Position numbers and translations under genes: made by a program
Shown: piece after piece, positions 4,876 through 34,843 of the stretch
How the letters are laid out: the number at the start of each line of letters is the position of its first letter
Numbering within the stretch: position 1 is the first letter of the stretch
IMG/VR virus record: IMGVR_UViG_3300017991_000009
Span: 31,167 to 95,166 of that record
Source: a virus
Strand: one strand, 5' to 3'
Length of the DNA: 64,000 bases
Notes under the pieces: model-generated
What the model was told of the DNA's origin: nothing
Seen by the model: only the letters and a program-made list of their open reading frames with translations
Databases searched by the model: none

Positions 4876-4894
4876 AAGCCCAAGGAGGAATCCA

Positions 4895-7260: not shown

Positions 7261-7267
7261 CAAGGCC

Positions 7268-7669
7268 ATGCAAGTGATAGCAGGTGACCGTACAAACATG
7301 CACCAAGAGATGGTGCGGAGCGGAGTACACGAGATGACTCAGGCAGAAGGAGCGTCGAGACTGAGGGGCTTACTCCTTGATGTAGTGAAGGAGTTGGTAG
7401 ACAGGCCCGACAAAGTGGAGGTCACGCAGACCGTGTCCGACGGTGGCAACACAGTAGTGCTCACCGTTCGCACGGCCGATGGCGAGGTCGGGAAGGTGAT
7501 CGGCCGCGGCGGTCGCAACGCGCAGGCTCTCCGTATCCTGTTCGAGGCGATTGCCGCCAAGTACAAGCAACGTGTGGTGCTCGAGATCGCTGACTCAGAC
7601 AATCCCCGCAGAAGGAGAAACAATGGATCGAAAGGCTCTAGAGGGCGCAATTCAGTGCGCGGTTCGTAG
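7268..7669 (+). CDS. KhpA-like KH-domain RNA-binding protein
   Basis: 133 residues from ATG 7268, preceded by AGGAGG at 7252-7257. Residues 30-110 closely follow the bacterial KhpA pattern: LVDRPDKVEV, a strand, then the nucleic-acid-binding loop GKVIGRGGRNAQALR (GxxG type) and KQRVVLEI. Host KhpA binds RNA, often with KhpB, and influences translation and cell elongation. This copy has an extra N-terminus and a basic Arg/Ser-rich tail (RRRRNNGSKGSRGR) that overlaps the start of the endolysin gene by 47 bases. A role in phage RNA metabolism or takeover is inference. Confidence 0.82.
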   Translation: MQVIAGDRTNMHQEMVRSGVHEMTQAEGASRLRGLLLDVVKELVDRPDKVEVTQTVSDGGNTVVLTVRTADGEVGKVIGRGGRNAQALRILFEAIAAKYKQRVVLEIADSDNPRRRRNNGSKGSRGRNSVRGS

Positions 7670-11020: not shown

Positions 11021-11193
11021 GCCACGGCGTGGAAGTACCCATCGGTTTCATCAAACGTAAAGACACCAAGGGAGCCGAGGTACTCACCCCCAGGAACATC
11101 ATACCCCTGACTGTTGACACCGTGTCTTTACAGGAGGACAATGAATGTAAAGACAAAGAAGGAGTAGACAGGCGGTACGTGAGCGAAAGATGA
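11008..11193 (+). CDS. Small unknown protein
   Basis: 61 residues from ATG 11008 (GAGAGGAGAG upstream), overlapping the protease gene by 13 bases and the next gene by four (ATGA). Charged, no hydrophobic segment. Three copies of the GTAAAGAC element (11057, 11123 on the reverse strand, 11147) lie inside the gene. No family recognised. Confidence 0.5.
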   Translation: MEGMSHGVEVPIGFIKRKDTKGAEVLTPRNIIPLTVDTVSLQEDNECKDKEGVDRRYVSER

Positions 11194-11426
11194 ACATCCC
11201 CTCCCTCGTAGAAGCAAAGTGCAGTCACTGTGACAGCGGGAAGGTAGATGTCGGCTCAATCCTCGGCCCCCAGGCGTGCTCTAGCTGCCTGGGTAGTGGA
11301 TTTACCCTGGTCCAGCTTCCGACGCCTCCTGCAGCGGCTCAGAAGGCCAGGCGATGTCCCAAGTGTGGTGCATACACACGCAACTCTCTCCTCGCCCGCC
11401 TGTACCACGTATTTACCTGCAGATAG
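11190..11426 (+). CDS. Small double zinc-ribbon protein
   Basis: 78 residues from ATG 11190. The cysteine pattern is CSHCDSGK...CSSCLGSGF, which resembles a DnaJ-type zinc repeat (CxxCxGxG), followed by CPKCGAY and a C-terminal cysteine. It should bind one or two zinc ions and may contact nucleic acid or protein. A copy of the iterated octamer (GTATTTAC, 11409-11416) lies at its 3' end. Confidence 0.65.
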   Translation: MNIPSLVEAKCSHCDSGKVDVGSILGPQACSSCLGSGFTLVQLPTPPAAAQKARRCPKCGAYTRNSLLARLYHVFTCR

Positions 11427-11435
11427 GACAAGAAG

Positions 11436-12404
11436 ATGCCCAACAAACGCCTCCCCGCGGAGAAGCGGAAGCCAACCAAGTACAGTAAGCGTACCCTGAT
11501 CAAAGCCCGCCGGCAGATCATCCTAAAGTTACACACCGAAGGCAAAACCAACATACAGATAGCGGAAGCGGTAGCCATTAACCCAGCTTTGGTACAAAGG
11601 GAGATAGACCTGGCTACCGAGGAGTTTCTCCGCTCTTGGGCAGAGCAAGGACCAGAGCACACGTTCGTCCGGTACGCTTCCTTCCAACTGAACATCGTGC
11701 GTAAGCTCCAAGCCGCCCACGACCGCTTCCTGAAGGACAAGCACAACAAGCAGTACAACGCGGCTATCTCTGCCCTCCGTGCCCAATCTGATATCTACGA
11801 CAAGGTATTAGACAAGGGTATTACCTTTGGTGTCATCGAACAAACGAAAGCAAAGGACCACATCCGCCAATCTTCAGGAGAGATACGTATCAGACTACAG
11901 AAAGAAGTACGTGTCCTCTCCCGCCTCCTAGAAGAGGTAGACAACCCACCTGGCCCGCCCCCTAAACAGCTTACCCTCCCCCCATCCACTGGTACTGATG
12001 ATCTACAATCCGCTAGCACCCTTTACCCGATAATCGTCAACCCCCTCATGGGTCCCCTAGGTGTAATCCGCGACATCCCAGATTGGAGATTGCGCAAACT
12101 TTCCCCCTCGCGTAAAGACAAATCCCCACCCCCTGTACCTACCTCAGAAGAGGAGAAGTTAGCTGCCCAGGCAACGTATTTACAGGCAGAGCTTGACCGT
12201 ATCTCTTACCTGCAGGAAGAAGCTACCTCCCACCGTAAAGACACCAACATCATTGATATCGATCCCCAGGATGTAAATACAATAACCAATTCCCCGCCCC
12301 CAGGTAATAACAAACCTAACCCCGCTTCTAAGGATAAGAGCAAGCAACCCAATCACCAGCAAGATACACAGGCAGGATGGTTGGTAAAGCCTATGAGAGG
12401 GTAG
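11436..12404 (+). CDS. HTH-containing protein with a long disordered tail
   Basis: 322 residues from ATG 11436. The N-terminal 40% is helical and starts with a basic segment and an HTH-like unit (LHTEGKTNIQIAEAVAINPALVQREI), which recalls small terminase or other site-specific DNA-binding proteins. From about residue 165 it becomes Pro/Ser/Lys/Asp-rich and probably unstructured. The coding strand here is C-rich, unlike most of the window, and four copies of the iterated octamer lie in the part coding for the tail. Given the dense repeats here, it may be a DNA-binding initiator or partition protein, but this is inference. Confidence 0.7.
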   Translation: MPNKRLPAEKRKPTKYSKRTLIKARRQIILKLHTEGKTNIQIAEAVAINPALVQREIDLATEEFLRSWAEQGPEHTFVRYASFQLNIVRKLQAAHDRFLKDKHNKQYNAAISALRAQSDIYDKVLDKGITFGVIEQTKAKDHIRQSSGEIRIRLQKEVRVLSRLLEEVDNPPGPPPKQLTLPPSTGTDDLQSASTLYPIIVNPLMGPLGVIRDIPDWRLRKLSPSRKDKSPPPVPTSEEEKLAAQATYLQAELDRISYLQEEATSHRKDTNIIDIDPQDVNTITNSPPPGNNKPNPASKDKSKQPNHQQDTQAGWLVKPMRG

Positions 12405-12882
12405 TATATACACACTACCTTCCCCAGGAAGTAAATCCTACCAGTATCTGTTGAATAACCCCCCTTGTATGTCACAAGCACGCCCGTAGCTAGCCCAGTC
12501 CCCAGGAATCCCCACAACCACCAGGAGTGTACATACACCACCATTACCAGTAACAGCCTCCCTCCTAACATACCGGGGGGAGGTTAGATTACTGCTATGT
12601 GGGTAGAGGTGGGCCGGGGTTCCTACAATACACAAATGCCGCCAACTTCTGAGTAATCCATGTATATACACCACATACATACAAACAGGTAACAGGGGGA
12701 GCCCCGCATCTCACTGCTCTTGCCTCCATGGTGTATATACAGTCCATATCTCCCACCCCTATCTCCTAGTTACACGCTCCCTCCTGTATATACAAGCCAG
12801 GGGAATCTCAGATGTATTTACGTGTTGACATCCATCCCTTCCTGATGTAAATACAGACGTAGGATATCAGGGAGGTAAATAC
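12405..12882 (+). other. Gene-free stretch within the repeat cluster; candidate origin or regulatory region
   Basis: 478 bases without a convincing gene on either strand; the minus-strand frames here lack good start signals and family features. It contains seven octamer copies starting between 12662 and 12875, plus the one ending at 12411, and a near match GTGTACATACAC at 12527-12538. The + strand is C-rich (line 12481-12540: 25 C, 11 G) and becomes strongly G-rich just after it (12961-13020: 31 G, 9 C). This combination is typical of replication origins or partition sites, but no DnaA box or initiator gene was recognised. Confidence 0.5.
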
Positions 12883-13089
12883 ATGAGCGACGTAAAGACA
12901 AGGGAGGAAAACAGGAAGGCAGTTAATTTCAGGCTGCCACTCATCACCATCAGGAATCTGGGGAGGGAGGCACGACTGGGGAAGACAACGAGGACCAACG
13001 TGGTGGTGGAGGCGTTGGGGATGTACTTCAAGTGGAAGCAAAAGCGGAGGGACAAGGTAAGTACGGCAAGGAGGGAAAGAGGGAGGTAA
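12883..13089 (+). CDS. Ribbon-helix-helix DNA-binding protein
   Basis: 68 residues from ATG 12883. The segment KAVNFRLPLITIRNLGREA followed by TTRTNVVVEALGMYFK matches an Arc/CopG-type ribbon-helix-helix: one beta strand then two helices. A basic tail follows (KWKQKRRDK, RRERGR). The start lies directly after an octamer copy (12875-12883) that bridges the GGAGG site and the ATG, and another copy begins at codon 4. This suggests that the protein binds the iterated octamer and controls its own synthesis. That link is inference; the fold call is fairly firm. Confidence 0.75.
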   Translation: MSDVKTREENRKAVNFRLPLITIRNLGREARLGKTTRTNVVVEALGMYFKWKQKRRDKVSTARRERGR

Positions 13090-13096
13090 ATACAAG

Positions 13097-13411
13097 ATGA
13101 AGAAGAGCACGGGCGACAACTACCTATCCAGTTACTGCAACCAGTACCACGAGAAGGCCACAGGGAAACCGATTGACCACGAGTGCAGGGTGATCCCACC
13201 GGCGGCGTTAGAGGCAGAGCGAGTCGGAGATACCGACTTGGCAATCCGGATACTGGAGCGGTGTGGGAAGTGCAGCAACTGCAAGAAGCTGGCGAGGGTA
13301 CAACGAGCAGTGCTGAGGTGCTGCAACTCCCCCTTTAGTCACGCGGACCAGGACGTGATTGATTTATGGAACGCTGAGTTGGAGAGGTTGCCCTGTACTG
13401 GTAGGAGGTGA
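13097..13411 (+). CDS. Small cysteine-rich protein
   Basis: 104 residues from ATG 13097. An octamer copy (13086-13094) lies between GGGAGG and the start codon. Cysteines occur as CGKCSNCKK and later CC, suggesting metal binding; the part RVGDTDLAIRILERC is helical. No known family recognised. It may share regulation with the preceding ribbon-helix-helix gene. Confidence 0.6.
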   Translation: MKKSTGDNYLSSYCNQYHEKATGKPIDHECRVIPPAALEAERVGDTDLAIRILERCGKCSNCKKLARVQRAVLRCCNSPFSHADQDVIDLWNAELERLPCTGRR

Positions 13412-13414
13412 ACA

Positions 13415-13675
13415 GTGAAAGAGAAAGCGGAGCAGGAAGCAATAGAGCAGATGAGGCAGTCGCCTTACAACTTTGATGATACGAGGTGGGCCGCGTATCA
13501 GAACCGGGCGCTGGATAGCGCGGGGCTGGGGCACCTACAGTTCCTAGCGGTGGGCCCCAGGAACACGTACAAGGAGAAGCCGCCGCAGTTCCCGGACACG
13601 GCGCAAGGCGTGGGCTGGAAGTACAGGTTCGTTGGTTGGGTGGATCTGGGGACGGGGGAGATTCATGCTGACTGA
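13415..13675 (+). CDS. Small unknown protein
   Basis: 86 residues from GTG 13415 (GTAGGAGG upstream). Contains an aromatic-rich C-terminal half (WKYRFVGWVDLGTGEIHAD) that reads as a short beta sheet. It overlaps the start of the methylase-like gene by 11 bases. Function unknown. Confidence 0.6.
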   Translation: MKEKAEQEAIEQMRQSPYNFDDTRWAAYQNRALDSAGLGHLQFLAVGPRNTYKEKPPQFPDTAQGVGWKYRFVGWVDLGTGEIHAD

Positions 13676-14333
13676 CACGGGCTCCCAGTTTCTGAGGTGG
13701 ATAGACACCGCCCACTCCCTCTCTCACTTACCGTGGTACTCGAGGTTCAGGGTGGTCATCGACCTGTTCTACTTCGCAGTGCTCAGGGAGGAGCAGCAGT
13801 ACATGCAGGCGGTGGAGGAGGCGGGGAAGCAGGCTACCAGGGACGCGCCGGAGTGGATGGCAAAGCTCATGATGGAGATGCACGCCAACCCCAGCGACCA
13901 CCTGGGGAGCATCTACCAGGAAGCGTCGGTCAACGACAAGAAGCGGCTGGCCCAGTACTTCACCCCGGATGGGGTAGCGGCAGCGATGGCCGCGATGACT
14001 CTCGCCGACATCCACGAGGAGCAGTTCACCAAGGCTGGTGGGTTGAAGATTCACGAGCCCTCCTGTGGGACGGGAGTTATGTGCATTCACGCTGCAAGGC
14101 TGATCAACGAGGAGTTCGGTCAGTGGGGGCTGAACAGGACCAGCTTCACCCTGGTGGACAAGGACATCCTCTGTTGCAAGATAGCCCTCCTGCAGATGTT
14201 GTGGTTGCCGTACCCGGTGGCGGAGGTGGTGGTGATGCACGGCGATAGCCTGCGCCGGGAGGTATGGATGGAGGCCAGGTTCGGAAGAGGGACGCCACCC
14301 TCCCACACCAGGATTGTGAGGAAGACCCAATGA
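13665..14333 (+). CDS. N6-adenine methylase-like protein lacking the catalytic motif
   Basis: 222 residues from ATG 13665 (GGGGGAG just upstream). It resembles the helical start and SAM-binding half of type I restriction M subunits: HLGSIYQEAS, then KRLAQYFTPDGVAAAMA, and motif I HEPSCGTGVMCIHAA. A second SAM-contact strand (FTLVDKDILCC) follows. It then stops shortly after VVMHGDSLRRE without the NPPY/NPPF motif IV that carries out methylation. It is therefore a truncated methylase, a SAM-binding regulator or a decoy. The small following gene does not supply the missing motif. Confidence 0.72.
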   Translation: MLTDTGSQFLRWIDTAHSLSHLPWYSRFRVVIDLFYFAVLREEQQYMQAVEEAGKQATRDAPEWMAKLMMEMHANPSDHLGSIYQEASVNDKKRLAQYFTPDGVAAAMAAMTLADIHEEQFTKAGGLKIHEPSCGTGVMCIHAARLINEEFGQWGLNRTSFTLVDKDILCCKIALLQMLWLPYPVAEVVVMHGDSLRREVWMEARFGRGTPPSHTRIVRKTQ

Positions 14334-14773
14334 AGAAGAAAGAAGCCCAGCCGATGGCCGCGGTTGATGACAGCCACCACCTGCTCCGCACCATGATGGA
14401 CCTGGCAGTCAGCCTCCGCCTGCTGGAGATGGAGAACAGGGACCCACCGGACATGTACGAGGAGATCACCTGCTTGGAGTGCCGAGGTTTGTGCAACGGC
14501 TGCGCCACCTGTGGAGACCACGGGAAGATGCCCAGGCACCTGGCGTATGCTCACTACCTGGGGGCCCACGGTGATGACCTGCTGTACCGATCAAAGAAGA
14601 AGGGAGAGACGGCGAAGGTGTTCAACCTGGTGGCGGAGATGCTGGCCGGGCTGGCCTTCCAACCAGGCGGGGTGACCTTCGCCGGCACCCACTACGAGGT
14701 GAAGCCCAAAGAGAAGCTATACCCAATCATTAGAAACGTGGAAGGGGGCGGGTATGAAAATGGTAATGCTTAG
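14330..14773 (+). CDS. Zinc-knuckle protein following the methylase-like gene
   Basis: 147 residues from ATG 14330, overlapping the previous stop (ATGA). A compact cysteine cluster CLECRGLCNGCATCGDHG in the middle suggests a zinc-binding module. The C-terminal half is alpha/beta-like with no recognised motif. Co-translation with the methylase-like protein suggests they work together, but nothing else supports a role. Confidence 0.65.
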   Translation: MKKKEAQPMAAVDDSHHLLRTMMDLAVSLRLLEMENRDPPDMYEEITCLECRGLCNGCATCGDHGKMPRHLAYAHYLGAHGDDLLYRSKKKGETAKVFNLVAEMLAGLAFQPGGVTFAGTHYEVKPKEKLYPIIRNVEGGGYENGNA

Positions 14774-14963
14774 GTTGATTTTATTGGTGGCCCTATTGGT
14801 GAACTGCTGTGCTCATGGTGAGTTTAGGGAGGTTGTATCAAATACTAAGTGTGTCGAGAATGTGATCTTTGTCTTTGATGGTAAAGAGTGGTCTTGGTAT
14901 ACGGATTGTTCGTTGGTAGGTAGGGCGTGTTATGAAACGCATGATGGCGCACGGTGTTTATAA
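14754..14963 (+). CDS. Small secreted or lipoprotein-like protein
   Basis: 69 residues from ATG 14754. The N-terminus is a clear export signal (MLRLILLVALLVNCCAHG) with a lipobox-like LVNC. The mature part has four further cysteines and aromatic residues. Base composition is more AT-rich than its neighbours. It could be an outer spanin, an immunity-type lipoprotein or another envelope protein; no inner-membrane spanin partner was found beside it. Function not assigned. Confidence 0.6.
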   Translation: MKMVMLRLILLVALLVNCCAHGEFREVVSNTKCVENVIFVFDGKEWSWYTDCSLVGRACYETHDGARCL

Positions 14964-14973
14964 GGAGGTAGAG

Positions 14974-15204
14974 ATGGATAACCCAACCAAGCAGTGGGTA
15001 GACAGGCTGGCAAAGAAGCTGGGCTACGAGGTGGTCTGGTCGCCGGTGAATCAGGCCTTCTTCATCACTGAGAAGCCAATCCGACTTCCACATGCCGCGT
15101 GGTCTGGTCCTATCCGGTCTGAGCCCAAGGTGATGGCAGTGAAGCACGACCTGGTGGACGTTGCGAACTGGTTGGAGGATAAGCGGAGTGAGGCGGTCGG
15201 CTGA
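14974..15204 (+). CDS. Small unknown protein
   Basis: 76 residues from ATG 14974, with AAGGAGG at 14962-14968. Helical start (TKQWVDRLAKKLGYEVVW) followed by a strand and a C-terminal helix (VDVANWLEDKRS). No motif recognised. Confidence 0.6.
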   Translation: MDNPTKQWVDRLAKKLGYEVVWSPVNQAFFITEKPIRLPHAAWSGPIRSEPKVMAVKHDLVDVANWLEDKRSEAVG

Positions 15205-15207
15205 CCT

Positions 15208-15276
15208 GTGGAGATCACCCCGCTGTGTATGGCCTGTGTGACGAAGCGGATAACCATAAAGAGAGGTAACGAGTGA
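15208..15276 (+). CDS. Possible 22-residue peptide
   Basis: A GTG-started frame of 22 codons with a CMAC pair and a basic tail, ending exactly where the next small gene starts (TGATG). Its only support is the perfect stop/start coupling and the lack of any other use for this gap. The ribosome binding site is weak. Treat as tentative. Confidence 0.25.
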   Translation: MEITPLCMACVTKRITIKRGNE

Positions 15277-15377
15277 TGACGAGACAAGAGATCGACGCTT
15301 GGTGGGGCTTGCTCTTGAGCATTAGTGGTTTTGTGATCGGGTGGGTGCTGCGAGGCCTTTGGATCGGAGGGGTGTGA
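15276..15377 (+). CDS. 33-residue membrane protein
   Basis: ATG 15276 to TGA 15377, preceded by GAGAGGTAACG. The sequence has a short polar start (MTRQEIDAWW) and one transmembrane segment (LLLSISGFVIGWVL), ending RGLWIGGV. Start and stop both overlap neighbours by TGATG, which supports translation. It could be a small holin-like or antiholin-like peptide, but a single short segment does not allow assignment. Confidence 0.5.
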   Translation: MTRQEIDAWWGLLLSISGFVIGWVLRGLWIGGV

Positions 15378-15586
15378 TGGTGAAGCCTGGGTTTTGGCAG
15401 ATACAGGCGAGGGTGTCTTACCGCAAGCCTAACGGGTGGACCGAGGAAGCCCAGCTTCCGACCTTCTATCTTGATCCTGACGTGCAAGCTATTCGTTCTG
15501 CAGAGCATGCCGAAAGCATAGCGGAGAAGATCATCGACCCGTTCGGGCTGTACCAGGTGTGCCCGTTGGCCGCCCATGTTGAGTGA
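15377..15586 (+). CDS. Small unknown protein
   Basis: 69 residues from ATG 15377, coupled to the preceding membrane peptide (TGATG). It starts with an aromatic beta-like segment (GFWQIQARVSYRK) and ends with a helix (AEHAESIAEKIID). It overlaps the GIY-YIG gene by 11 bases. No family recognised. Confidence 0.6.
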   Translation: MVKPGFWQIQARVSYRKPNGWTEEAQLPTFYLDPDVQAIRSAEHAESIAEKIIDPFGLYQVCPLAAHVE

Positions 15587-15875
15587 GCACCGATTCTCGG
15601 TCTACGTCGTGCGGGATAGGAAGGACCGCCTGTACACGGGGATCTCCACCCACCCGAAGGCGCGTGTGCATGCACACAACAACTACAAGAACGGAGCGAA
15701 GTGCTTGAGGGGCACTCGGCCAGTGACGCTGGTCTGGGTGTCTACCATCAAGTTCACCAGAAGCGAGGCGCTCCGCATCGAGGCAGCGATCAAGCGGATG
15801 AACAAACAAGAGAAGGAGGACTTCATCGTATCCACCACGTGCGGTGGTGAGATGGGGCTCCTTGGCGGGGAGTGA
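15576..15875 (+). CDS. GIY-YIG nuclease family protein
   Basis: 99 residues, the size of the YhbQ/UPF0213 single-domain group. The motif pair appears as VYVVRDRKDRLYTGIST (GIY becoming VYV, YIG becoming YTG). It is followed by the Arg in ARVHAHN, GAKCLRGTRPVTLVW, and the Glu-containing helix SEALRIEAAIKRMNK. All catalytic positions appear to be present. Such proteins can nick or cleave DNA; a role in host DNA breakdown or homing-like activity is possible. Starts at ATG 15576. Confidence 0.82.
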   Translation: MLSEHRFSVYVVRDRKDRLYTGISTHPKARVHAHNNYKNGAKCLRGTRPVTLVWVSTIKFTRSEALRIEAAIKRMNKQEKEDFIVSTTCGGEMGLLGGE

Positions 15876-16312
15876 AAGTGAACCGGCGTAGTCCTAATAT
15901 CTCCAAGTGGATCAACGGGAAGGTAGCGTACATCCCGAGAGTGCTTGAAGGTTGTATAGAAGAGGAGCTTGATGCCCGCGCACCCCAGTGGCGCCAAGTG
16001 TTACAGGCTGACGTGGAGTTGGAGTTCCACGGGTACTTGCAAGATCCTGTCACGGATAGGCTGGCTGACTACGAGAAACTAAAGCACGTAGTGCGGGAGG
16101 CCCTCAGCACGTTGAATCCTCGTGAGCAGTGGATCCTTGAGTGTAGATTTGGCCTGGGTGTTGAGTCGGGTATGGCGTGGACGCTAGAGGAGATCGCGGC
16201 GTACCTTGGTAGATCAGTAGAGCGTATTAGGCAGGTGCAGAACAGAGGGTTGCGGAAGCTACGACATCCGAGCCGTACAAAAGGCACTAAGGCATTTTAT
16301 TTGTACTATTGA
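15872..16312 (+). CDS. Sigma-70 region 4-like protein
   Basis: 146 residues from GTG 15872 (overlapping the previous stop) or GTG 15878. The C-terminal 75 residues match sigma-70 region 4: LNPREQWILECRFGLG, then WTLEEIAAYLGRSVERIRQV with the -35-binding HTH, and RGLRKLRHPSRTK. The first half has no recognisable region 2, so it is not a complete sigma factor. It may act as an RNA polymerase-binding activator, a co-sigma or an appropriation factor that directs the host polymerase to phage promoters. Strong family call; role inferred. Confidence 0.82.
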   Translation: MKVNRRSPNISKWINGKVAYIPRVLEGCIEEELDARAPQWRQVLQADVELEFHGYLQDPVTDRLADYEKLKHVVREALSTLNPREQWILECRFGLGVESGMAWTLEEIAAYLGRSVERIRQVQNRGLRKLRHPSRTKGTKAFYLYY

Positions 16313-26370: not shown

Positions 26371-27378
26371 GTGGTAGGTCTGAATCCCACAAACCTCACC
26401 ACCGAGGAGTTGTGTGACCTGGGGAGTGCAATTGACTCCACGTTGTGTGTCGTGCTCAAGGTCGCGCCTCGGAGGGAGTCTGAGATCATCGAAGGTCGAA
26501 TTGCCTCGACCATCGGTAGAGCTTGGAAGTCCACGGCGAATGCCGCGACCAACTCCGGCATAGCCAAACTCCTCAAGGGCCCTTTCACTGACCGGCGGAT
26601 CACCTCCTTCCTGAAGTCCTTGGGTGTGAAGCTGAAGACCCCCCTCACCAAGACCCAGATCAAGGTGATAGAGAAACGGCTCCAGTCTATCTGGAGGATC
26701 GCTAAGAAGTGGGCGGCGAAGGAGGCCAAGATCTCCTTCTCCTTCTCTCACGTTGATCAGCGAGCAGTCGCCGCGATCAACAGGCACCAGGTGTTCTGGG
26801 TAGGTGACTTCTACAACGACAAGTTGTCCCGCAGGATACGGGCCGTGTCTGAGGATGTCCTCCTTCGGCGCGGCCTCTCGCATAAAGAGGCGGGGGCGGT
26901 GCTAAGGAGAACTCTTCGCAGGGAGTTCGGTATCCTCCCTGGCGGTAAGACTAGGTTCGCGCCCACCGTCCCCGCTCGCTATGCGGGAAACCCCGATCTC
27001 TACTTCCGACAGGTAGCGTCAACCGCGGCGCACCAGTCGAGGACCTTCGGCACGTTGACCGCGTTCAGCGAGGCGGGGGTAACCAGCTACCAGCTTATCA
27101 ACCCGGATGACGAGCGTACCGGGCAGATCTGTCAACAGATGAGCGGGCAGGTTTTCTCCGTACAGACGGGGGTGCGGCAGATGAATCGCATCCTTGGAGC
27201 GAAGGACCCGAAGGACGTGAAGAAGATCGCCCCGTGGTTGTCAGGTGACGACATCGAGGCGGCCCTCGCGGGTGCACGCACAGGCAGCCAGCAGGCTACG
27301 GATAGGCTTGCCGCTGCAGGTGCGATCCTTCCGCCGTTCCACGCTTTGTGCAGGACAGATATTGTGATTCCGAGCTAG
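26371..27378 (+). CDS. Head morphogenesis protein (SPP1 gp7 / Mu gpF-like)
   Basis: 335 residues from GTG 26371. The C-terminal domain matches the Mu F family: TAAHQSRTFGTLTAFSEAG, INPDDERTGQICQQMSG and a final LPPFHALCRTDIV with the conserved His and Cys. The N-terminal 150 residues are helical. Such proteins bind the portal and are present in small numbers in the head, some being ejected with DNA. Directly downstream of the portal, as expected. Confidence 0.85.
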   Translation: MVGLNPTNLTTEELCDLGSAIDSTLCVVLKVAPRRESEIIEGRIASTIGRAWKSTANAATNSGIAKLLKGPFTDRRITSFLKSLGVKLKTPLTKTQIKVIEKRLQSIWRIAKKWAAKEAKISFSFSHVDQRAVAAINRHQVFWVGDFYNDKLSRRIRAVSEDVLLRRGLSHKEAGAVLRRTLRREFGILPGGKTRFAPTVPARYAGNPDLYFRQVASTAAHQSRTFGTLTAFSEAGVTSYQLINPDDERTGQICQQMSGQVFSVQTGVRQMNRILGAKDPKDVKKIAPWLSGDDIEAALAGARTGSQQATDRLAAAGAILPPFHALCRTDIVIPS

Positions 27379-27380
27379 TC

Positions 27381-27722
27381 ATGAAGAAGCGGACTACGAT
27401 ACAAACTCTCATCTTTGACAAGGCAAAGTTTCCTACGAGGGACTCGGTACGTAAGTGGATCAAGGCTCATGGATTTCACATCATGCGCCAAAAGGAGAAA
27501 GTGACGAAGCCGGGTATTGACGAAACCGCTGGTAGCTTTAGAGTGCGCCAGAGGGCGCCTAGTGATTTCGTGCGAGGGTCGTTCAGAACGATTAATATTA
27601 CTGATGGAGTGAAAGCTGTTATCGGAAGGCTGAAGTCTAGCGTGAAGAAAACGGGCGTAGTACTTGAAGTAAAAGGCCCCTATGACTTGCTGGATATATT
27701 GGAGGAGTTATGTGGCGATTAG
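27381..27722 (+). CDS. Small protein resembling prohead-protease leader modules
   Basis: 113 residues from ATG 27381. The stretch LIFDKAKFPTRDSVRKWIKAHGF resembles a short module (fT..eAr.Wl..HGf) often found near XkdF-type proteases in phages. More AT-rich than the genes before it. It ends 13 bases inside the QueD gene, so the modification island is fused to the head operon at this point. Function unknown. Confidence 0.55.
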   Translation: MKKRTTIQTLIFDKAKFPTRDSVRKWIKAHGFHIMRQKEKVTKPGIDETAGSFRVRQRAPSDFVRGSFRTINITDGVKAVIGRLKSSVKKTGVVLEVKGPYDLLDILEELCGD

Positions 27723-28075
27723 AGAAAGCGTTCAAATTTGAGGCAGCACATTCCCTGCCTTATCACCGTGGTAAGTGTAAGCGGGTACACGGCCACTCTT
27801 GGCATGGGAAGGTAGTCCTTGAGCGTAACGATCTTACCGAGGATGGCCCCGAGGCGGGAATGGTCACTGACTTTGGGAAGGTAAAGGAGGTGATTGACCA
27901 GGTGTTAGACCAGTACCTCGATCACCTGTTCCTCAACGAATCTACTGGGATGCGCAACCCCACCTCGGAGCTACTTGCGAAGTGGCTCTACGATCACTTG
28001 AAGGTTCGCCTGCCGTACCTCGCGGCGATCGTCATCCAGGAGACGGACTCGAGCACCTGCGAGTACCGACCGTAG
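27710..28075 (+). CDS. queD: 6-carboxytetrahydropterin synthase
   Basis: Second step of 7-deazaguanine synthesis: converts dihydroneopterin triphosphate to 6-carboxy-tetrahydropterin. 121 residues from ATG 27710, the usual QueD length. Zinc ligands His14 (FEAAHSL), His27 and His29 (HGHSWHG) and the catalytic Cys23 are present, as are a central DFGKVKEVID segment, the LDHLFLN histidine and the C-terminal ETDSSTCEY glutamate. It opens the modification island and is followed three bases later by QueE. The enzyme looks complete and active. Confidence 0.93.
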   Translation: MWRLEKAFKFEAAHSLPYHRGKCKRVHGHSWHGKVVLERNDLTEDGPEAGMVTDFGKVKEVIDQVLDQYLDHLFLNESTGMRNPTSELLAKWLYDHLKVRLPYLAAIVIQETDSSTCEYRP

Positions 28076-28078
28076 GCG

Positions 28079-28681
28079 ATGCTGGGGAAGAGGTACATAG
28101 TCAAGGAGATCTTCTACTCCCTACAGGGAGAGGGGATGCGTGCAGGCGAGGCTAGTGTTTTTGTCCGCTTCGCTGGTTGTAACCTTAACTGTAGGAAGGA
28201 GACGCATGGTTTCGACTGTGACACCGACTTCAAGGGCGGTGTGAAACTGACCGCGGAAGGGGTACTCGAGGCAATCAAGAACGTCAACGAGCACTGTCGC
28301 TGGATCGTGCTGACCGGCGGGGAGCCCGCCGTGCAGTTGGATTCGGCACTCGTTTCTGTTCTGAAGGCCGCTGGCTATAGCCTGGCGATCGAAACCAATG
28401 GTACAAAGGCCTTGCCCGAGGGGCTTGACTGGATATCAGTTTCGCCGAAGCCCGGTACCTGCCTGGAGCAAACGAGAGCGATGGAGGTGAAATATGTCCT
28501 ACGTGCTGGTGACCTTTTGCCTACGCGGTCAGAGATTAAGGCCGCTTACTATCTATTGAGCCCCGCCTTTGAGGGAAACACTCTGCCCCAGGATAACCTG
28601 CGGCACTGCATCAACCTCTGCCTGGGTAACCCCAAGTGGATCCTTTCTGTCCAACTACACAAGCTAATAGGTGTGAGATGA
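28079..28681 (+). CDS. queE: 7-carboxy-7-deazaguanine synthase
   Basis: Radical SAM enzyme that makes 7-carboxy-7-deazaguanine (CDG) from the QueD product. 200 residues. The N-terminal FYSLQGEGMRAG and FVRFAGCNLNC are diagnostic. The iron-sulfur cysteines are Cys34, Cys38 and Cys47 (CX3CX8C), ending in GFDCDTDF. SAM-binding LTGGEPAVQ and the ETNGT strand follow, and the C-terminus SVQLHKLIGVR is typical. Overlaps the FolE start by four bases (ATGA). Complete. Confidence 0.94.
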   Translation: MLGKRYIVKEIFYSLQGEGMRAGEASVFVRFAGCNLNCRKETHGFDCDTDFKGGVKLTAEGVLEAIKNVNEHCRWIVLTGGEPAVQLDSALVSVLKAAGYSLAIETNGTKALPEGLDWISVSPKPGTCLEQTRAMEVKYVLRAGDLLPTRSEIKAAYYLLSPAFEGNTLPQDNLRHCINLCLGNPKWILSVQLHKLIGVR

Positions 28682-29235
28682 GTGAAGATCTAGTACGAGA
28701 GATGATTCTAGCGATTGGTGACGACCCCGACCGAGAAGGTCTGAAGGAAACACCCAAGCGGGTGGTGAAGTCGTGGGCTGAGTTGTACTCAGGCTACAAC
28801 GCGGATGCGGCTGAGTACTGCAAGGTGTTCTCCGCGACCTATGATCAAGTAGTGGTGTTCAAGGACATCGACTACTTTTCAATGTGCGAACACCACATGC
28901 TGCCTTTCTTCGGGAAGGTGTATATCGCCTACTTGCCTGCAACCAACGGCAAGCAGGGGGCCAAGGTGATCGGGGCGTCTAAGATGGCCCGAATCGTGAA
29001 CGTGTTTGCACGCAGGTTGCAGATACAGGAGCAGATGACTCAACAGGTCGCGGAAGCGATCCAGGAGATGATTCACCCGAGGGGGTTGGCAGTCATCGTG
29101 GATGGGATGCACCTTTGCATGATGGCAAGAGGCGTGAGTCAGCAACACGCCACGATGCGAACCAGTGCCATGTGGGGCCTCTATCGAGAGGACCACAGGG
29201 CGCAGGCTGAAGCCCTTCGGTTGATGGGGTTTTAG
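28678..29235 (+). CDS. folE: GTP cyclohydrolase I
   Basis: First step of the pathway: GTP to dihydroneopterin triphosphate. 185 residues from ATG 28678. Zinc and active-site residues occur in YFSMCEHHMLPFFG (Cys and two His) and HLCMMARGVSQQ. IGASKMARIVNVFARRLQIQE is the conserved substrate-binding region. A phage copy lifts supply of the limiting first step. Gene order QueD-QueE-FolE is compact, with overlaps that imply one transcript. Confidence 0.94.
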   Translation: MSEDLVREMILAIGDDPDREGLKETPKRVVKSWAELYSGYNADAAEYCKVFSATYDQVVVFKDIDYFSMCEHHMLPFFGKVYIAYLPATNGKQGAKVIGASKMARIVNVFARRLQIQEQMTQQVAEAIQEMIHPRGLAVIVDGMHLCMMARGVSQQHATMRTSAMWGLYREDHRAQAEALRLMGF

Positions 29236-29236
29236 G

Positions 29237-29980
29237 ATGCCAAAGATCATCCTTGCCCCGCACCTAGATGACGAGGTGATCGGCTGCTACTCCATCCTCG
29301 GAGAAGTGGACCGAATCGTGTACTTCACAAGCGACTATCGTGAAGAGAACCTGCCCGATGATCGCTACGAGAAGTTCAAGGGCACACTGCCCCACGGCAT
29401 TGCTGAGGCCGACACGGTATTCCTCCCAAGCAGGTTCGACCACCATCCCTTTCACCGATATGTCCGCAACGTCGGGCTCGGGCTTCCTGGGATCAAGTGG
29501 TTCTATAGCGTTGAAATGAACGTACCGTGGTTAGAAGAGGAAGCGGACCCTGACGGGAAGTGGGCCATGATGGAACGGCTTTACCCGCAGGAGGTACCAC
29601 GGCTCGTTGATCATAAGTATCGGCTGTTCAAGAGTATCAAGCCGTTCGACGAAGTGATCCGGGCTAGCGTGAAGATCGTCATTGAAAGGTGGCACCGCTG
29701 GCCCGCTGCACCGGAGAAGGTCGCGTTCTTGCGCAACCTCCACCGCCACTTGTTCCACGTCAACGTGCGCGTTCAGCAGTTCCAAGACGACCGCGACCTT
29801 GAATACTTCCTGTTGAGGGAAGAGGTGGGAGAGATTGTCAACGGGTTCAAGTGGGAAGAACGCACCAGTTGTGAAATGCTAGCCCTTAGCGTAAAGCGAA
29901 CATTGGAAATGAGGTACCTCGACCGAATGGTTCAGGTATCAGTCTATGAGGACAACGAAAACGGATGCGAGGTGGAGTGA
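29237..29980 (+). CDS. PIG-L/LmbE-type deacetylase
   Basis: 247 residues from ATG 29237. The N-terminal motif LAPHLDDEVIGC (His9, Asp11, Asp12) is the metal site of PIG-L deacetylases (usually PHPDDE), and SRFDHHPFHRYVRNV matches the second histidine motif (HxDH-type). Family members remove the acetyl group from N-acetylglucosamine-bearing substrates in GPI, mycothiol and bacillithiol synthesis. Here it lies in the base-modification island with a glycosyltransferase, so removal of an acetyl group from a sugar on a modified base or nucleotide is a reasonable inference. Substrate unproven. Confidence 0.8.
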   Translation: MPKIILAPHLDDEVIGCYSILGEVDRIVYFTSDYREENLPDDRYEKFKGTLPHGIAEADTVFLPSRFDHHPFHRYVRNVGLGLPGIKWFYSVEMNVPWLEEEADPDGKWAMMERLYPQEVPRLVDHKYRLFKSIKPFDEVIRASVKIVIERWHRWPAAPEKVAFLRNLHRHLFHVNVRVQQFQDDRDLEYFLLREEVGEIVNGFKWEERTSCEMLALSVKRTLEMRYLDRMVQVSVYEDNENGCEVE

Positions 29981-30714
29981 TGAAACACGTAGGCGAAAAC
30001 AAACACGTAGGCGAAAACATCGTCGATATAGCCAATGAGGGCCGCAAGCTCAACCTGTTTCAGGTTGAGGTAACCAACATATGCAACGGCAAGTGTGAAT
30101 ACTGCCCACAGTCGACAATGAAACGAAAGGCGGGGTATATCTCGCCTATGGTGTACCGCTCGGCGCTTCACGCAATGGAGAACGACGCCTTCCACCTGCA
30201 TGGGCACGGGGAAACCTTGATGCACAAGCAGGTGGTTGAGATGGTGGACCTTGCCACCAGCTTGGGTAAGGAGGTCGGGTTTTCAACCAACGGCTCCCTT
30301 CTCACGCAGGAGAAACTCGATGCGTTGGCCCAGGCCGGGTTGAAGTGGCTCCGTCTGCACGTCGGCCCGTTCGGTGTGCGGCTCAACCAGTTCAAGGTAC
30401 CCGAAGGCTTGATCGCCACCGAGCACCGGGTGGGCGATAACGGTCCCGAGGAGGTTGAGGACAAAGGGATGACTTCGTGGGGTGGTTGGGTGGATGGTGT
30501 CGAGGAAACAGGAGGGGCTGACCGCTGCTCCTTTTTAGGGTACCCCAACGGCAAGGAGTGGCGGTGCTTGCTCTACGACGGAACGGTAACTTTGTGTTGC
30601 GTTGACTACGAAGGTGGTGCTACACAAAGTGACATCTGTAGCAAGTGCCGTGGGTTTGTTTTCAGGAGCCCTCGCGATTGGGGAAACTATGACGGCGAAG
30701 GCTGGGAATTCTAG
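29980..30714 (+). CDS. Radical SAM protein with SPASM-like C-terminus
   Basis: 244 residues from ATG 29980 (GAGGTGGAG upstream). Iron-sulfur motif CNGKCEYC (Cys35, Cys39, Cys42). The central domain has FHLHGHGETLMHKQ and EVGFSTNGSLLTQEKL, as in SPASM-type radical SAM enzymes. The C-terminus has WRCLLYDGTVTLCCVDYEGG and CSKCRG, cysteines that could hold an auxiliary cluster. It is shorter than usual for the family. It starts with a tandem seven-codon-scale repeat (KHVGEN twice). Its neighbours suggest that it alters the modified base or a sugar attached to it. Reaction unknown. Confidence 0.8.
   Translation: MKHVGENKHVGENIVDIANEGRKLNLFQVEVTNICNGKCEYCPQSTMKRKAGYISPMVYRSALHAMENDAFHLHGHGETLMHKQVVEMVDLATSLGKEVGFSTNGSLLTQEKLDALAQAGLKWLRLHVGPFGVRLNQFKVPEGLIATEHRVGDNGPEEVEDKGMTSWGGWVDGVEETGGADRCSFLGYPNGKEWRCLLYDGTVTLCCVDYEGGATQSDICSKCRGFVFRSPRDWGNYDGEGWEF
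29983..30018 (+). repeat. 18-base tandem duplication inside the radical SAM gene
   Basis: Two perfect consecutive copies of an 18-base unit (first bases AAACACGTAGGCGAAAAC), giving KHVGENKHVGEN at the protein's N-terminus. In-frame and recent in appearance. It may be neutral, since it precedes the catalytic domain. Confidence 0.9.
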
Positions 30715-30723
30715 GAGCGAATC

Positions 30724-31164
30724 ATGAATACGAAAGTGCAAGCGGCAAAGCATGTGATTGCGGACGCGATAGCGAAACACGATCACCGAATCTACGTGGC
30801 GTACTCAGGCGGCAAGGACAGCCAGGCTCTCCTGCGGTTGGTGCGCTCGGTCAACCCCCACGCCCTGGTCGTGCACAATGGCTACGAGGGTGAATCGGTC
30901 GAAGACGAGTTCGGCATCTTGAAGGTCAAGCCCCCCAAGGCAGAGACCGTGCCGAAGTTCATGGAGGCGGTTGACCTTGGTGCGCAGTTCGATGCAACGC
31001 GCCGCGCCGAGAACAAGCTGGTGTGTATCGACGGCAAGGAGATCCACCGCAGCAACATGACCGGCCCCTACACCGCAAAAGGTTACTTCGGGCTGGAAGT
31101 CTACTTCCCTCTCTGGGACTGGTCAGACGAGGAAGTGCTGACCTTCTTGGAGGTGAGCGAATGA
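30724..31164 (+). CDS. PP-loop ATPase of the PAPS reductase-like family
   Basis: 146 residues from ATG 30724. The P-loop YVAYSGGKDSQALLRLV (Ser28-Ser33) is the adenylating motif of the adenine nucleotide alpha-hydrolase superfamily. The C-terminal PLWDWSDEEVLTFLE is typical of PAPS reductase-like members. It lacks the C-terminal zinc cysteines of QueC, which uses the related motif SGGxDS to turn CDG into preQ0. It may adenylate a carboxyl group of CDG or another substrate and so stand in for QueC or add a different group. Shorter than typical family members (about 200-250). Confidence 0.72.
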   Translation: MNTKVQAAKHVIADAIAKHDHRIYVAYSGGKDSQALLRLVRSVNPHALVVHNGYEGESVEDEFGILKVKPPKAETVPKFMEAVDLGAQFDATRRAENKLVCIDGKEIHRSNMTGPYTAKGYFGLEVYFPLWDWSDEEVLTFLEVSE

Positions 31165-31691
31165 AGGTTGACCGCTGCCACTACAGTTATGACGGCGAGG
31201 GAGATCTAATCGGTACCAAGACCTTCTTTTGTCACTACCCAGGTGAGACCTCAATCGAGCAGTTTGACTTGAGCAAGGTAGGGGCGGTCTTTGTCAATAC
31301 GGACACCCTTGACGAGACCCTTGGAGGGTGGATCGACCGTTGCGGTAAGATAGTGACGGTTGAGGTAGACGGGGAGGTGTTGAACACGACGCCCGCCGTA
31401 ACCATCGACCTTGATGGTGCGAGGCTGTTCGTTGTCGTGGATCGCTTTTTCCCGCACCTCGTCAACTTCACTGGGTTCGTAAAGGTTAGAGTAATGGCCG
31501 AAGCTAACCTCCCTGAGTGCTTGAGGCTGGCAAATACCTACGCGATGCAAGGGCGGCAAGTCCTCCTGATGCCCGAGTTTACTGACATCGGGCACAAGGA
31601 GGTAGGTGAGGTCATGATGGGGATCTACGATGAGGTCCACCCGCTGGTGCGGGTCATGCCTCCAGTTCAGTTCCTCTTGGGGGTGAAGTGA
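31161..31691 (+). CDS. Putative cysteine-less QueE-like protein
   Basis: 176 residues from ATG 31161, overlapping the previous stop. It aligns by eye with the phage QueE at both ends: YSYDGEGDLIGTKTFFCHYPG against YSLQGEGMRAGEASVFVRFAG, and VRVMPPVQFLLGVK against WILSVQLHKLIGVR. The GEG motif remains but the CX3CX8C cluster cysteines are gone, so it could not be a radical SAM enzyme. It might bind CDG-like ligands as a pseudoenzyme, carrier or subunit. Homology is a proposal that needs a profile or structure search. Confidence 0.5.
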   Translation: MKVDRCHYSYDGEGDLIGTKTFFCHYPGETSIEQFDLSKVGAVFVNTDTLDETLGGWIDRCGKIVTVEVDGEVLNTTPAVTIDLDGARLFVVVDRFFPHLVNFTGFVKVRVMAEANLPECLRLANTYAMQGRQVLLMPEFTDIGHKEVGEVMMGIYDEVHPLVRVMPPVQFLLGVK

Positions 31692-32758
31692 TGCTCTACT
31701 ATCTGCCTATCGAACCGCTTGAGGAGAGGTACACCGAGCAGTGGTATCGGTGGTTCCCGGAAGAGTTCAAGCGGCAAGGGATTCGCTACCAGACTATCGA
31801 CGGGGAGACCCTCGTTGATGAGGTTCAGGTAGGGACGTTTCTGGACGTGAACTCAACGCTCTATTACAAGGCAGAGCAACTCAGGCGTGTCGCCAAACTC
31901 TTTCACCATGGGTTGATCGAGAGTGGTGACAAGTTCTTTGTGGCGGATGTCGAGTTTTGGGGTATCGAAAGTATCAGGTACCTCGCCACCCTCAACAAGG
32001 TGGACGTGGGGATCCTCGGGTTCTGTCACGCAGGGAGTTACACGGTTGAGGATTTCATGGAACCGTGCGCACCCTTCGCTCACCACTACGAGACCGCTTG
32101 GGGATCGGTCTTTGATATGATCTTCGTTGGGAGCGAGTACCATAAGCGTATGCTGGTGGAAAAGCGGAAGCTGCCCGCTGACAAGCTCATGGTTACCGGC
32201 AACCCCTACGATGCGTCAGAAGTGCCTAAGCTGAACCTCCCTGTGAACCACACACGGGTCATCCTCACCAATCGCCCTGACCCTGAGAAACGTCCCGAGG
32301 TCACACTGAAGGTTTTCGCTCAACTTAAGAAACAACACCCCTCTTGGGACTTTCTGGTGACCACTGGCCGCAAACAGTGGGGCTCGGGTGCCGTTAGAAA
32401 CACCGCCCTTGCCCTGCGGGACCAGGGTGTGATCACCATTCACGAAGGTATCTCAAAAGGCGAGTACCTCGAACTGCTAGCAAGTAGCCGCGTCATGACA
32501 GGGAACACCATTGAGGAGAACTTCGGGTATTGCGTCCTGGAGGCCCTTTTGGTTGACACCATCCCTGTTGTGCCGAACGACTTTAGCCACCCTGAACTAC
32601 TCCAGAATGACGAAAGGTGCCTCTTTGACACTACAGGTCGTCAGATGACCTTGATCGAACGTGCAATAGAGGATCCTTTTTCCGTTCTAGGGTATAGTAA
32701 GCGGTACGAGGATTCGCTTGCGGCGATAGTGCTAAGTATCAAGGAGGGCCGACCATGA
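31688..32758 (+). CDS. GT-B family glycosyltransferase (GT4-like)
   Basis: 356 residues from ATG 31688 (overlaps the previous stop). Typical GT4 signs: VFVGSEYHKRMLVE and LMVTGNPYDASEV at the end of the N-terminal lobe, RVILTNRPDPEKRPEV at the hinge with Arg and Lys for the sugar-nucleotide phosphates, and TIEENFGYCVLEALLVDTIPVV, where the E-x-FG motif binds the donor. In this island it probably transfers a sugar to a modified base, in free or DNA form. Donor and acceptor are unknown. Its pairing with a PIG-L deacetylase suggests an N-acetyl-hexosamine donor. Confidence 0.82.
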   Translation: MMLYYLPIEPLEERYTEQWYRWFPEEFKRQGIRYQTIDGETLVDEVQVGTFLDVNSTLYYKAEQLRRVAKLFHHGLIESGDKFFVADVEFWGIESIRYLATLNKVDVGILGFCHAGSYTVEDFMEPCAPFAHHYETAWGSVFDMIFVGSEYHKRMLVEKRKLPADKLMVTGNPYDASEVPKLNLPVNHTRVILTNRPDPEKRPEVTLKVFAQLKKQHPSWDFLVTTGRKQWGSGAVRNTALALRDQGVITIHEGISKGEYLELLASSRVMTGNTIEENFGYCVLEALLVDTIPVVPNDFSHPELLQNDERCLFDTTGRQMTLIERAIEDPFSVLGYSKRYEDSLAAIVLSIKEGRP

Positions 32759-33861
32759 AGTTTTATTTCGTAGCAGGAGCTAACGACTCCGTGAACGTAC
32801 TGTTGGACGAAAAGGTCCGGTCTATCCTCGTGTCCTTCGCCCACTTCAAGAAAAAGTTGCCCGACAGATTGGTTGCAGCGGCCAAGAAAGGCACGATCCA
32901 CCTGATGTTGGATTCAGGTGCATTCACCAACGCAACCAAGCCTGGGCACGTCACCCTTCCTGAGTACATTGACTTCGTGAAATCTCACAAGTCGTTGCTC
33001 ACGGAGTACGTGACCCTTGACGACTTGAAAGCCCGCAGCACCACGGTCAAGAACCTTGCAAAGATACGCGAGGCGGGTCTTGACCCTATGCTGGTTGACC
33101 ATATGTGGTTCCCTTGGTTCGAGAAGTTCCTCGGCCCTGAGTACAAGAAGGGAAAGAAGGTATGCTGGGGAGGCTTGGTATCGCTTGCCCAGAAGCCCTC
33201 GACCACTGACGCCGCAGCCGCGAACATGAACCTCAACGTCCTCGGCAAGAGGATGAAGGAGCGTGGAAGCAGAGCAAGGGCGAAGCCTGTTTCCTCTGTC
33301 CACCTTCTTGGTGTTGGTCAACGCATCAAAGCGTTTCTCGGGTTCTTTGATGTTGTGGACTCAGTTGACTCCACGACTTGGAGGATCGCTGCCCAGAAGT
33401 TCGGTCGGGTCGCGTGGGTAAGCCGCGACGACCAGGGGTGGCCGAAACTTCACACGCCTCACCACACCGAGATACCCGACAAACTGAAAGCCAAACTCAA
33501 GCAACAGGGCTTTGACATATCGAGCCCGAAAGACCGTGACCGCATTGCTATCCGTGCCTTCAAACTCTTTTTCAAGATGGTGGAGGAGCGGTATCAGAAG
33601 GCGAAGCAAGCCGGTGAGGAGATCGCCCAGGTCGCCAAGTCTGAACTCCTGATCAAGGATTCGGAGGCGGTGCCTTCTGGGGACATCATTGAGGTGCTCA
33701 CCTCTGAGTTACCAGAGGATGAAATGATTGCCCTGGTTGGGGACCTTTCGCAGGACCTCAACCCAGAGGACATCAACCCGCCTCTACTGAAAGAAGTCTC
33801 CGACGCCGAGCTACTCCACCTTCACAGGCAACTGCACGGGCTAGGAGGTTCCCATGCCTAG
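32755..33861 (+). CDS. dpdA: DpdA-like DNA 7-deazaguanine transglycosylase
   Basis: 368 residues from ATG 32755. It resembles tRNA-guanine transglycosylase relatives that exchange guanine in DNA. HLMLDSGAFTNAT carries the substrate-binding Asp53; CWGGLVSL and SSVHLLGVGQR form the middle barrel strands; FDVVDSVDSTTWR carries Asp202/Asp205, one of which should be the nucleophile. The C-terminal 110 residues form a helical extension. DpdA proteins of phages insert preQ0, CDG or their derivatives in place of guanine. It closes the island and overlaps the protease gene by eight bases. Family call fairly firm; inserted base unknown. Confidence 0.82.
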   Translation: MKFYFVAGANDSVNVLLDEKVRSILVSFAHFKKKLPDRLVAAAKKGTIHLMLDSGAFTNATKPGHVTLPEYIDFVKSHKSLLTEYVTLDDLKARSTTVKNLAKIREAGLDPMLVDHMWFPWFEKFLGPEYKKGKKVCWGGLVSLAQKPSTTDAAAANMNLNVLGKRMKERGSRARAKPVSSVHLLGVGQRIKAFLGFFDVVDSVDSTTWRIAAQKFGRVAWVSRDDQGWPKLHTPHHTEIPDKLKAKLKQQGFDISSPKDRDRIAIRAFKLFFKMVEERYQKAKQAGEEIAQVAKSELLIKDSEAVPSGDIIEVLTSELPEDEMIALVGDLSQDLNPEDINPPLLKEVSDAELLHLHRQLHGLGGSHA

Positions 33862-34843
33862 TGAAGTGATGAGCACTCAGGAGGAGTCGCGAATCAGTGC
33901 CCACCTCCTTGTCGTTCAGGAGATGGTGAGGCGCGGCTTTAGTCACGACACGGTTGACGGGGTAGACGAAGCTACTCAGGCCATGGGTTGCGCTATTGGC
34001 CTGAAAGGTGACGAGCTTGAGTTGCTGGGGCTCACCAAAGCTGCCTTGAGCAAGCAGGTACCGCAGAAAGACGCACCGATGGAGGACAAGCGGAAGGCCC
34101 AGAAGGCAAGGGCTGCCCGGTTCGGCATCGAGGCGCTGGAAGGGAGAGGCGAAAGGCTGTCGTTCCCTGCGGGGTACCCCACAGACTTGAACCTCTACGG
34201 CGACCCGGTGAACCTGATGTTCCCGCTAGACCCAGCGGGGAGGGCTCGCAACGCCCGAGCCAGGTTCAAGCAGTTCGCTGACGACATCTACGAGCAGGAC
34301 AAGTCAAAGCGAATCGTGCACACGCGAATCGTGAAACGCCTCCTGTCTCTAGGGTCTGTACCTTCCTTTGATGAGGACGACCCGCTCGACAAACTGCTAC
34401 CACCTGACGTTCGTAGGCGGTTGCAGAAGTCAGTCATCGAGGTTGACCTTGACGATGACGACACCGAGGTCAACGAGGTCACCCTCATTGCAAAGGCCAC
34501 CGACGACGAACGGCACATTGTACTCGGCGTGGTGCTCGAACCTGACTCAGTTGATACACAGGGAGACACCATCAAGGCCGACGAAATCGAGCGTGCCGCC
34601 CACTTGTGGCTTGCAAGGTTTCAGGATCGCGGACTTATGCACCGCAGGATCGTGAACTCCAAGATCGAGATCTACGAGTCCTACCTTGCACCTGTGAACT
34701 TGACCTTGGGAGGGCAAAAGGTTAAAAAGGGCACTTGGTTACTCATGTACCATGTCCTTGACGACGCCCTCTGGAAGGACATCAAGAGTGGGAAGATCGC
34801 CGGGTTCAGCATGGGCGGATTTGCTAGAAGGGTCAAACTTTGA
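33854..34843 (+). CDS. Prohead protease (XkdF-type)
   Basis: 329 residues from ATG 33854. The last 110 residues match the XkdF serine protease domain: RHIVLGVVLEPDSVDTQGDTI, then HRRIVNSKIEIYESYLAPVN, and SGKIAGFSMGGFARR. The first 200 residues are a helical, charged region. The enzyme should cleave scaffold and capsid precursors at prohead maturation. The gene's end carries the next promoter. Confidence 0.82.
   Translation: MPSEVMSTQEESRISAHLLVVQEMVRRGFSHDTVDGVDEATQAMGCAIGLKGDELELLGLTKAALSKQVPQKDAPMEDKRKAQKARAARFGIEALEGRGERLSFPAGYPTDLNLYGDPVNLMFPLDPAGRARNARARFKQFADDIYEQDKSKRIVHTRIVKRLLSLGSVPSFDEDDPLDKLLPPDVRRRLQKSVIEVDLDDDDTEVNEVTLIAKATDDERHIVLGVVLEPDSVDTQGDTIKADEIERAAHLWLARFQDRGLMHRRIVNSKIEIYESYLAPVNLTLGGQKVKKGTWLLMYHVLDDALWKDIKSGKIAGFSMGGFARRVKL

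Follow-up and report, generated by a model that had tools for sequence, protein, structure and literature searches.

A viral gene cassette predicted to place a sugar-decorated 7-deazaguanine in phage DNA

The phage pathways described for dPreQ0, dG+ and dPreQ1 comprise FolE, QueD, QueE, QueC and DpdA (Hutinet et al. 2019, PMC6884629). Here we analyzed a 64,000-nucleotide stretch of DNA (the window; bases 31167-95166 of the 95,166-base viral record IMGVR_UViG_3300017991_000009) from a phage known from environmental (metagenomic) sequence only, and in it a nine-gene island at 27710-33861. The island has FolE, QueD, QueE and a DpdA-type transglycosylase in common with those pathways, but it lacks QueC, Gat-QueC and QueF and has five extra genes. 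Because the dPreQ0, dG+ and dPreQ1 routes need genes that are absent here, the island differs from them. Phage DNA reportedly also contains dCDG, dDG, mdPreQ1 and fdPreQ1 (Cui et al. 2023), and we know of no pathway from that work with a glycosyltransferase and a PIG-L protein. In systems of the dCDG/dDG type, chemistry at the level of 7-carboxy-7-deazaguanine (CDG) without QueC is conceivable, as it is for the island. On balance, we favor the reading that the island encodes a DNA hypermodification in which CDG is synthesized and receives an N-acetyl-hexosamine, the acetyl group is removed, further tailoring is optional, and DpdA carries out the insertion.

A GT4 glycosyltransferase and a PIG-L deacetylase form an established pair for the transfer and deacetylation of N-acetylglucosamine (GlcNAc), as in MshA/MshB, BshA/BshB and PIG-A/PIG-L. 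The pairing occurs in the mycothiol and bacillithiol pathways and in aminoglycosides, and in the island it is coupled to 7-deazaguanine genes. Mannosyl- and galactosyl-queuosine likewise have a sugar on a 7-deazaguanine in nucleic acid; they differ in belonging to animal tRNA and in involving neither PIG-L nor PP-loop proteins. The frame is probably the known dpd kind of DNA modification and the predicted sugar decoration its new part. We found no description of glycosylated 7-deazaguanine in phage DNA in a literature search whose coverage mostly excluded subscription papers and Cui et al. 2023.

A sequence-only reading of the window had proposed a plus-strand island of nine genes. Every open reading frame (ORF) was found intact at the positions proposed, overlapping its neighbors or sitting a few bases from them, and family searches and the gene order of a second contig (see below) agree. 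The labels QueD, QueE, FolE, radical SAM, glycosyltransferase and DpdA-like stood, and three others were refined. The PIG-L gene has the expected metal motifs and in fact joins a PIG-L domain to a QueD-like T-fold module. The second QueE-like protein has the QueE fold without the radical-SAM cysteines and so is a paralogue. The PP-loop protein is CysD/CysH-like, and family searches ruled out that it is QueC. The nine genes are as follows.

27710-28075, + strand: QueD, 6-carboxytetrahydropterin synthase (Pfam PTPS, 1.5e-32; TIGR03367 above cutoff; alignment A10)
28079-28681, + strand: QueE, CDG synthase (phrog_2076, 2.5e-31; TIGR04508, 2.5e-51 yet below cutoff; alignment A3)
28678-29235, + strand: FolE, GTP cyclohydrolase I (PF01227, GTP_cyclohydroI, 1.1e-64; TIGR00063 above cutoff)
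29237-29980, + strand: two-domain protein, N-terminal PIG-L-type deacetylase and C-terminal QueD-like T-fold (alignments A5 and A9; AlphaFold; Foldseek)
29980 (or 29965)-30714, + strand: radical SAM protein (CNGKCEYC) with SPASM-like C-terminal cysteines (PF04055, 1.1e-12)
30724-31164, + strand: small PP-loop ATPase (SGGKDS), CysD/CysH-like (PF01507, PAPS_reduct, 1.8e-5, above cutoff)
31161-31691, + strand: QueE-fold paralogue without radical-SAM cysteines (hhalign, AlphaFold, Foldseek)
31688-32758, + strand: GT-B glycosyltransferase, GT4-like (PF00534, Glycos_transf_1, 2e-9, over cutoff; E-x7-E)
32755-33861, + strand: DpdA-like DNA guanine transglycosylase (phrog_887, 1.4e-19; alignment A11)

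The island recurs as a unit. A 10-kb viral contig (L013) carries all nine genes in identical order, with protein identities of 43-64%. Between the window and this contig, every gene has diverged most at third codon positions (identity 0.37-0.47, compared with 0.66-0.79 at second positions), and at least half of the identical residues are encoded by a different codon. Such divergence, together with synonymous codon changes, indicates selection on all nine proteins as a unit. The near-identical L001 contains DpdA in part only. A DNA similarity search with a 24.9-kb stretch of the window gave no match among phage records.

We then surveyed the glycosyltransferase family. A scan with its alignment yielded 32 loci, all of them viral, and no member in bacterial or archaeal genome contigs; removal of near-duplicates and addition of the window and the cultured Xanthomonas phage X1 (OQ427096) gave 26 non-redundant loci, nearly all of which had been found via the glycosyltransferase, with family models partly seeded from these same loci. 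PIG-L was present in 25 of the 26, the QueD-like module in 23 and the PP-loop protein in 20. The QueE-like paralogue was counted in 22, a figure that takes in long and short forms, the short form being assigned mainly by position and weak similarity. A 7-deazaguanine gene of any kind lay within 10 kb, in the fetched flanks, at 22/26 loci, and a DpdA-like gene, of several types and mostly in the same gene run, at 20/26. FolE occurred in 27 of 30 records bearing the glycosyltransferase, compared with 393 of 50,697 phage records overall. Two kinds of gene fusion also occur: the window and 21 further listed loci encode PIG-L and the QueD-like module as a single protein, and L029, L030 and L034, which come from three metagenomes, do so for the PP-loop protein and the QueE-like paralogue. 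These fusions, the most position-independent evidence we have, tie enzymes of the sugar and adenylate types to folds of the 7-deazaguanine type. Synteny, co-occurrence and the two gene fusions thus give good support to the view that the extra genes and FolE-QueD-QueE-DpdA form one pathway that goes beyond simple 7-deazaguanines. The earlier proposal that the other five genes act on the base is borne out to that extent and is too strong for the QueE-like protein.

The same results bear on the alternative that a simple base (dCDG, dADG, dPreQ0 or dDG) enters the DNA, with the PP-loop/QueE-like pair or a host QueC replacing QueC, and that the sugar genes act elsewhere, for instance on host surface polysaccharide. 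FolE, QueD, QueE and DpdA are enough for a simple base, and a PP-loop stand-in is plausible because QueC is absent. Phage glycosyltransferase genes are, moreover, often read as surface-modifying: the paper on phage DLP3 reports PIG-L and glycosyltransferase genes and does not mention queuosine or deazaguanine (PMC7326821), and that on X1 discusses several X1 genes as exopolysaccharide or cell-wall genes, its main text never using "queu", "deazaguanine", "glycosyl" or "restriction" (PMC13384950). By contrast, the glycosyltransferase family lies beside 7-deazaguanine genes far above background, and PIG-L and the PP-loop protein are physically joined to QueD-like and QueE-like folds, so we regard the simple-base alternative as doubtful.

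The genes for the first steps are clear. By homology, it is supported that FolE, QueD and QueE make CDG from GTP, the set of CDG genes that marks a phage 7-deazaguanine (dpd) system being complete in family searches and the QueD alignment. QueD conserves its Zn-binding and catalytic residues (H14, C23, H27, H29, D71, H72 and E111; A10), and FolE carries CEHH and the second Cys motif. FolE probably starts later than the listed GTG (28636), with an ATG at 28678 overlapping the stop codon of QueE. In the window QueE, the cluster cysteines are spaced Cx3Cx8C as against the usual Cx3Cx2C, and the QueE proteins of X1 and phage BUCT-ZZ01 seem to have longer insertions at the same site. QueC (PF06508) gave nothing over cutoff in the window's record or any of 32 records, which may be incomplete, and QueF (PF14489) nothing over cutoff in 18 records, the weak match in the window being FolE itself. 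Thus, in the records searched, the phages do not themselves encode the routes to preQ0 and preQ1. PF00551, a formyltransferase domain that we assume to be the fold of DpdN, had no match in the window's record.

In the two-domain protein, the metal-binding motifs of the PIG-L half, PHxDDE (PHLDDE in the window) and HPxH, are invariant across six aligned sequences, and the C-terminal half is a member of a family that other phages encode as small free-standing proteins near folE, queD and queE. The AlphaFold model (pLDDT 78.8) has E. coli QueD (4ntk) as its best Foldseek match, at E 5.7e-4. This fold search placed the QueD-like half but gave no placement for the PIG-L half, which is modeled less well. 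Against the PDB, a profile of the module alone weakly matched a PTPS homologue (E 0.028) and a whole-gene profile returned only noise. The module keeps the Zn histidines and the glutamates, and QueD's catalytic Cys and Asp-His dyad are gone (A9 versus A10). The fusion points to a PIG-L substrate that includes the deazaguanine base. Small QueD-like T-fold proteins, annotated as hypothetical, also occur in many phage 7-deazaguanine clusters (L005, L010 and others). Such a protein could act as a partner of DpdA in general, or it could be DpdL, the predicted decarboxylase. The module is also present in Cellulophaga phiST and phages like it, where no glycosyltransferase was found nearby.

The QueE-like paralogue gave no match in family searches, nor in tblastn against phages, and its QueE ancestry comes from profile and fold comparison. 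Its N-terminal S-x-x-GEG-x4-G motif, kept as SYDGEG..G.KT.F, aligns to that of QueE (hhalign 88.8% over 47 columns), and its AlphaFold model (pLDDT 86.4) has B. subtilis QueE (5th5) as best Foldseek match, with a TM of 0.63 by query length and an E of just 0.016. Cluster cysteines of the CxxxCxxC type are absent from the protein and its homologues in the alignments, which rules out an active QueE and leaves the protein incapable of QueE's radical chemistry; it may be a (deazaguanine-)binding partner rather than an enzyme. The closest solved relative of the PP-loop protein is CysD (1zun, 2.8e-12), and its match to BrxP is generic PP-loop similarity.

These two proteins are central to another alternative, a mycothiol-like pathway to a CDG amide of an amino sugar, in which the GT4 enzyme would make GlcNAc-X, PIG-L would convert it to GlcN-X, the PP-loop/QueE-like pair would ligate CDG to the amine, and DpdA would insert the product. 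Its enzyme logic resembles that of MshA, MshB and their ligase; the PP-loop protein is fused to a QueE-fold protein in some loci, QueC is absent, and adenylyl transfer is the reaction of the PP-loop relatives CysD and FAD synthase. Some loci, however, keep the glycosyltransferase and PIG-L without the PP-loop and QueE-like genes, so the amide step is not part of the common core, and we consider this pathway unlikely.

The E-x7-E glutamates of the glycosyltransferase (E277 and E285), which mark GT4, are invariant in alignment A2, and its matches to MshA and BshA models are weak and below cutoff. In DpdA, D53 (LDSGAF) and D205 (VDSVDS), assigned by motif as the catalytic pair of tRNA-guanine transglycosylases, are invariant in A11; tblastn against phages gave no match and a profile search of the PDB nothing useful. 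The radical SAM protein has homologues in L013 (58% identity) and, more weakly, in L020/L050 and L046, and its match to viperin (pVip) is generic radical-SAM similarity. That the product is a small molecule, a glycosylated deazaguanine cofactor or signal, is very improbable: deazaguanine small molecules exist and a dpdA-type gene was not detected in the fetched flanks of 6/26 loci, but the other 20 have one, of several types and usually in the same gene run.

We therefore return to hypermodification of DNA by an amino-sugar 7-deazaguanine. On the model of MshA/MshB and BshA/BshB, the GT4-type enzyme would attach an N-acetylated hexosamine to a 7-deazaguanine unit. The PIG-L domain, joined to a QueD-like module that would bind the base, would strip the acetyl group and unmask the amine; addition of a hexosamine-type sugar appears the most economical reading of GT4 plus PIG-L. 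The PP-loop protein, with or fused to the QueE paralogue, might adenylate a carboxylate on the way to an amide; the carboxylate could be CDG's own, in which case the protein would stand in for the missing QueC. Tailoring by the radical SAM/SPASM protein would be optional and might alter the sugar or the linkage. DpdA, judged by its family, would exchange guanine in DNA for the base once this is complete or almost so. Since queuine-inserting enzymes tolerate large groups at position 7, the base could be assembled before insertion. The modification probably serves to protect the phage from host restriction.

Several observations weigh against this proposal. The radical SAM gene is present in just four of the 26 loci, and L023, L026 and L037 are among the loci without PP-loop and QueE-like genes. 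The PIG-L domain scores under the Pfam cutoff (E 0.012), and in Acidovorax phage ACP17, BUCT-ZZ01, Phosso and the PA5oct group, where a more distant glycosyltransferase lies beside a QueD-like module, no PIG-L was found nearby. The host could also supply QueC, and the records may be incomplete.

What the loci share is a core of glycosyltransferase, PIG-L, QueD-like module, CDG genes and DpdA, with extras that vary: radical SAM, PP-loop and QueE-like genes in the window and L013; PP-loop and QueE-like genes in X1, L027, L031, L041 and others; a methyltransferase plus a radical SAM protein of another type in the L014/L023 group; and an AAA-type protein and a QueE-like gene in L018/L028. In L014, the different radical SAM and the methyltransferase (4239-5609 and 6911-7450) replace the radical SAM, PP-loop and QueE-like genes. 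Since several DpdA types accompany the cassette, the sugar module has moved between systems. X1 has most of the cassette, sharing FolE, PP-loop, PIG-L, a short QueE-like protein, the glycosyltransferase (41% identical), DpdA, the QueD-like module and QueE. It differs in its type of DpdA and in having a QueD candidate elsewhere in the genome and separate genes for PIG-L and the QueD-like module; at the locus, no homologue of the radical SAM gene was found. The set is thus not this phage's alone, given a near-complete one in X1 and related ones in about two dozen other viral contigs.

The window also encodes terminase, portal, head protease and tail sheath, which identify a tailed phage whose tail is probably contractile. 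The gene that follows the island belongs to this group:

33854-34843, + strand: XkdF-type head-maturation protease (PF14550, 3.7e-26; context gene)

It probably belongs outside the modification pathway. In the window, dpdA and the protease gene overlap by 8 nt (32755-34843); in L013 (8004-9620), the L014/L023-25 group (8515-10548 in L014), L051 and L026, a single reading frame encodes DpdA together with an XkdF-type protease. DNA modification may be linked to head assembly or packaging. In L026, DpdA and the head protease are parts of one 1735-residue ORF (11079-16286), and between them lies an ATP-dependent DNA ligase domain split by a LAGLIDADG intein. The gene before the island (27348-27722) resembles by eye a stretch of the L014 fusion (TKPGxDET...RVRQR), which suggests that the island sits inside a head-protease cassette. 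Elsewhere in the window, an ORF at 4895-6262 matches ParB-like and DNA methyltransferase families (phrog_67, phrog_4715) and is possibly a second DNA modification enzyme.

A broader picture is possible, and we offer it tentatively: a widespread, modular viral pathway that puts amino-sugar-7-deazaguanine into DNA, in which altered QueD and QueE paralogues hold the base for sugar- and amide-forming enzymes and DpdA is tethered to the head-maturation protease in some phages. If the proposal is true, glycosylated or amino-sugar 7-deazaguanines would join the known DNA bases, and phages would be shown to have given the folds of QueD and QueE a further use, as carriers during the hypermodification of a base. 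The proposal makes a concrete, testable prediction for the cultured phages X1 and ACP17. It would also explain a gene set until now mostly annotated as hypothetical, and the enzymes named here may serve for labeling DNA at guanine.

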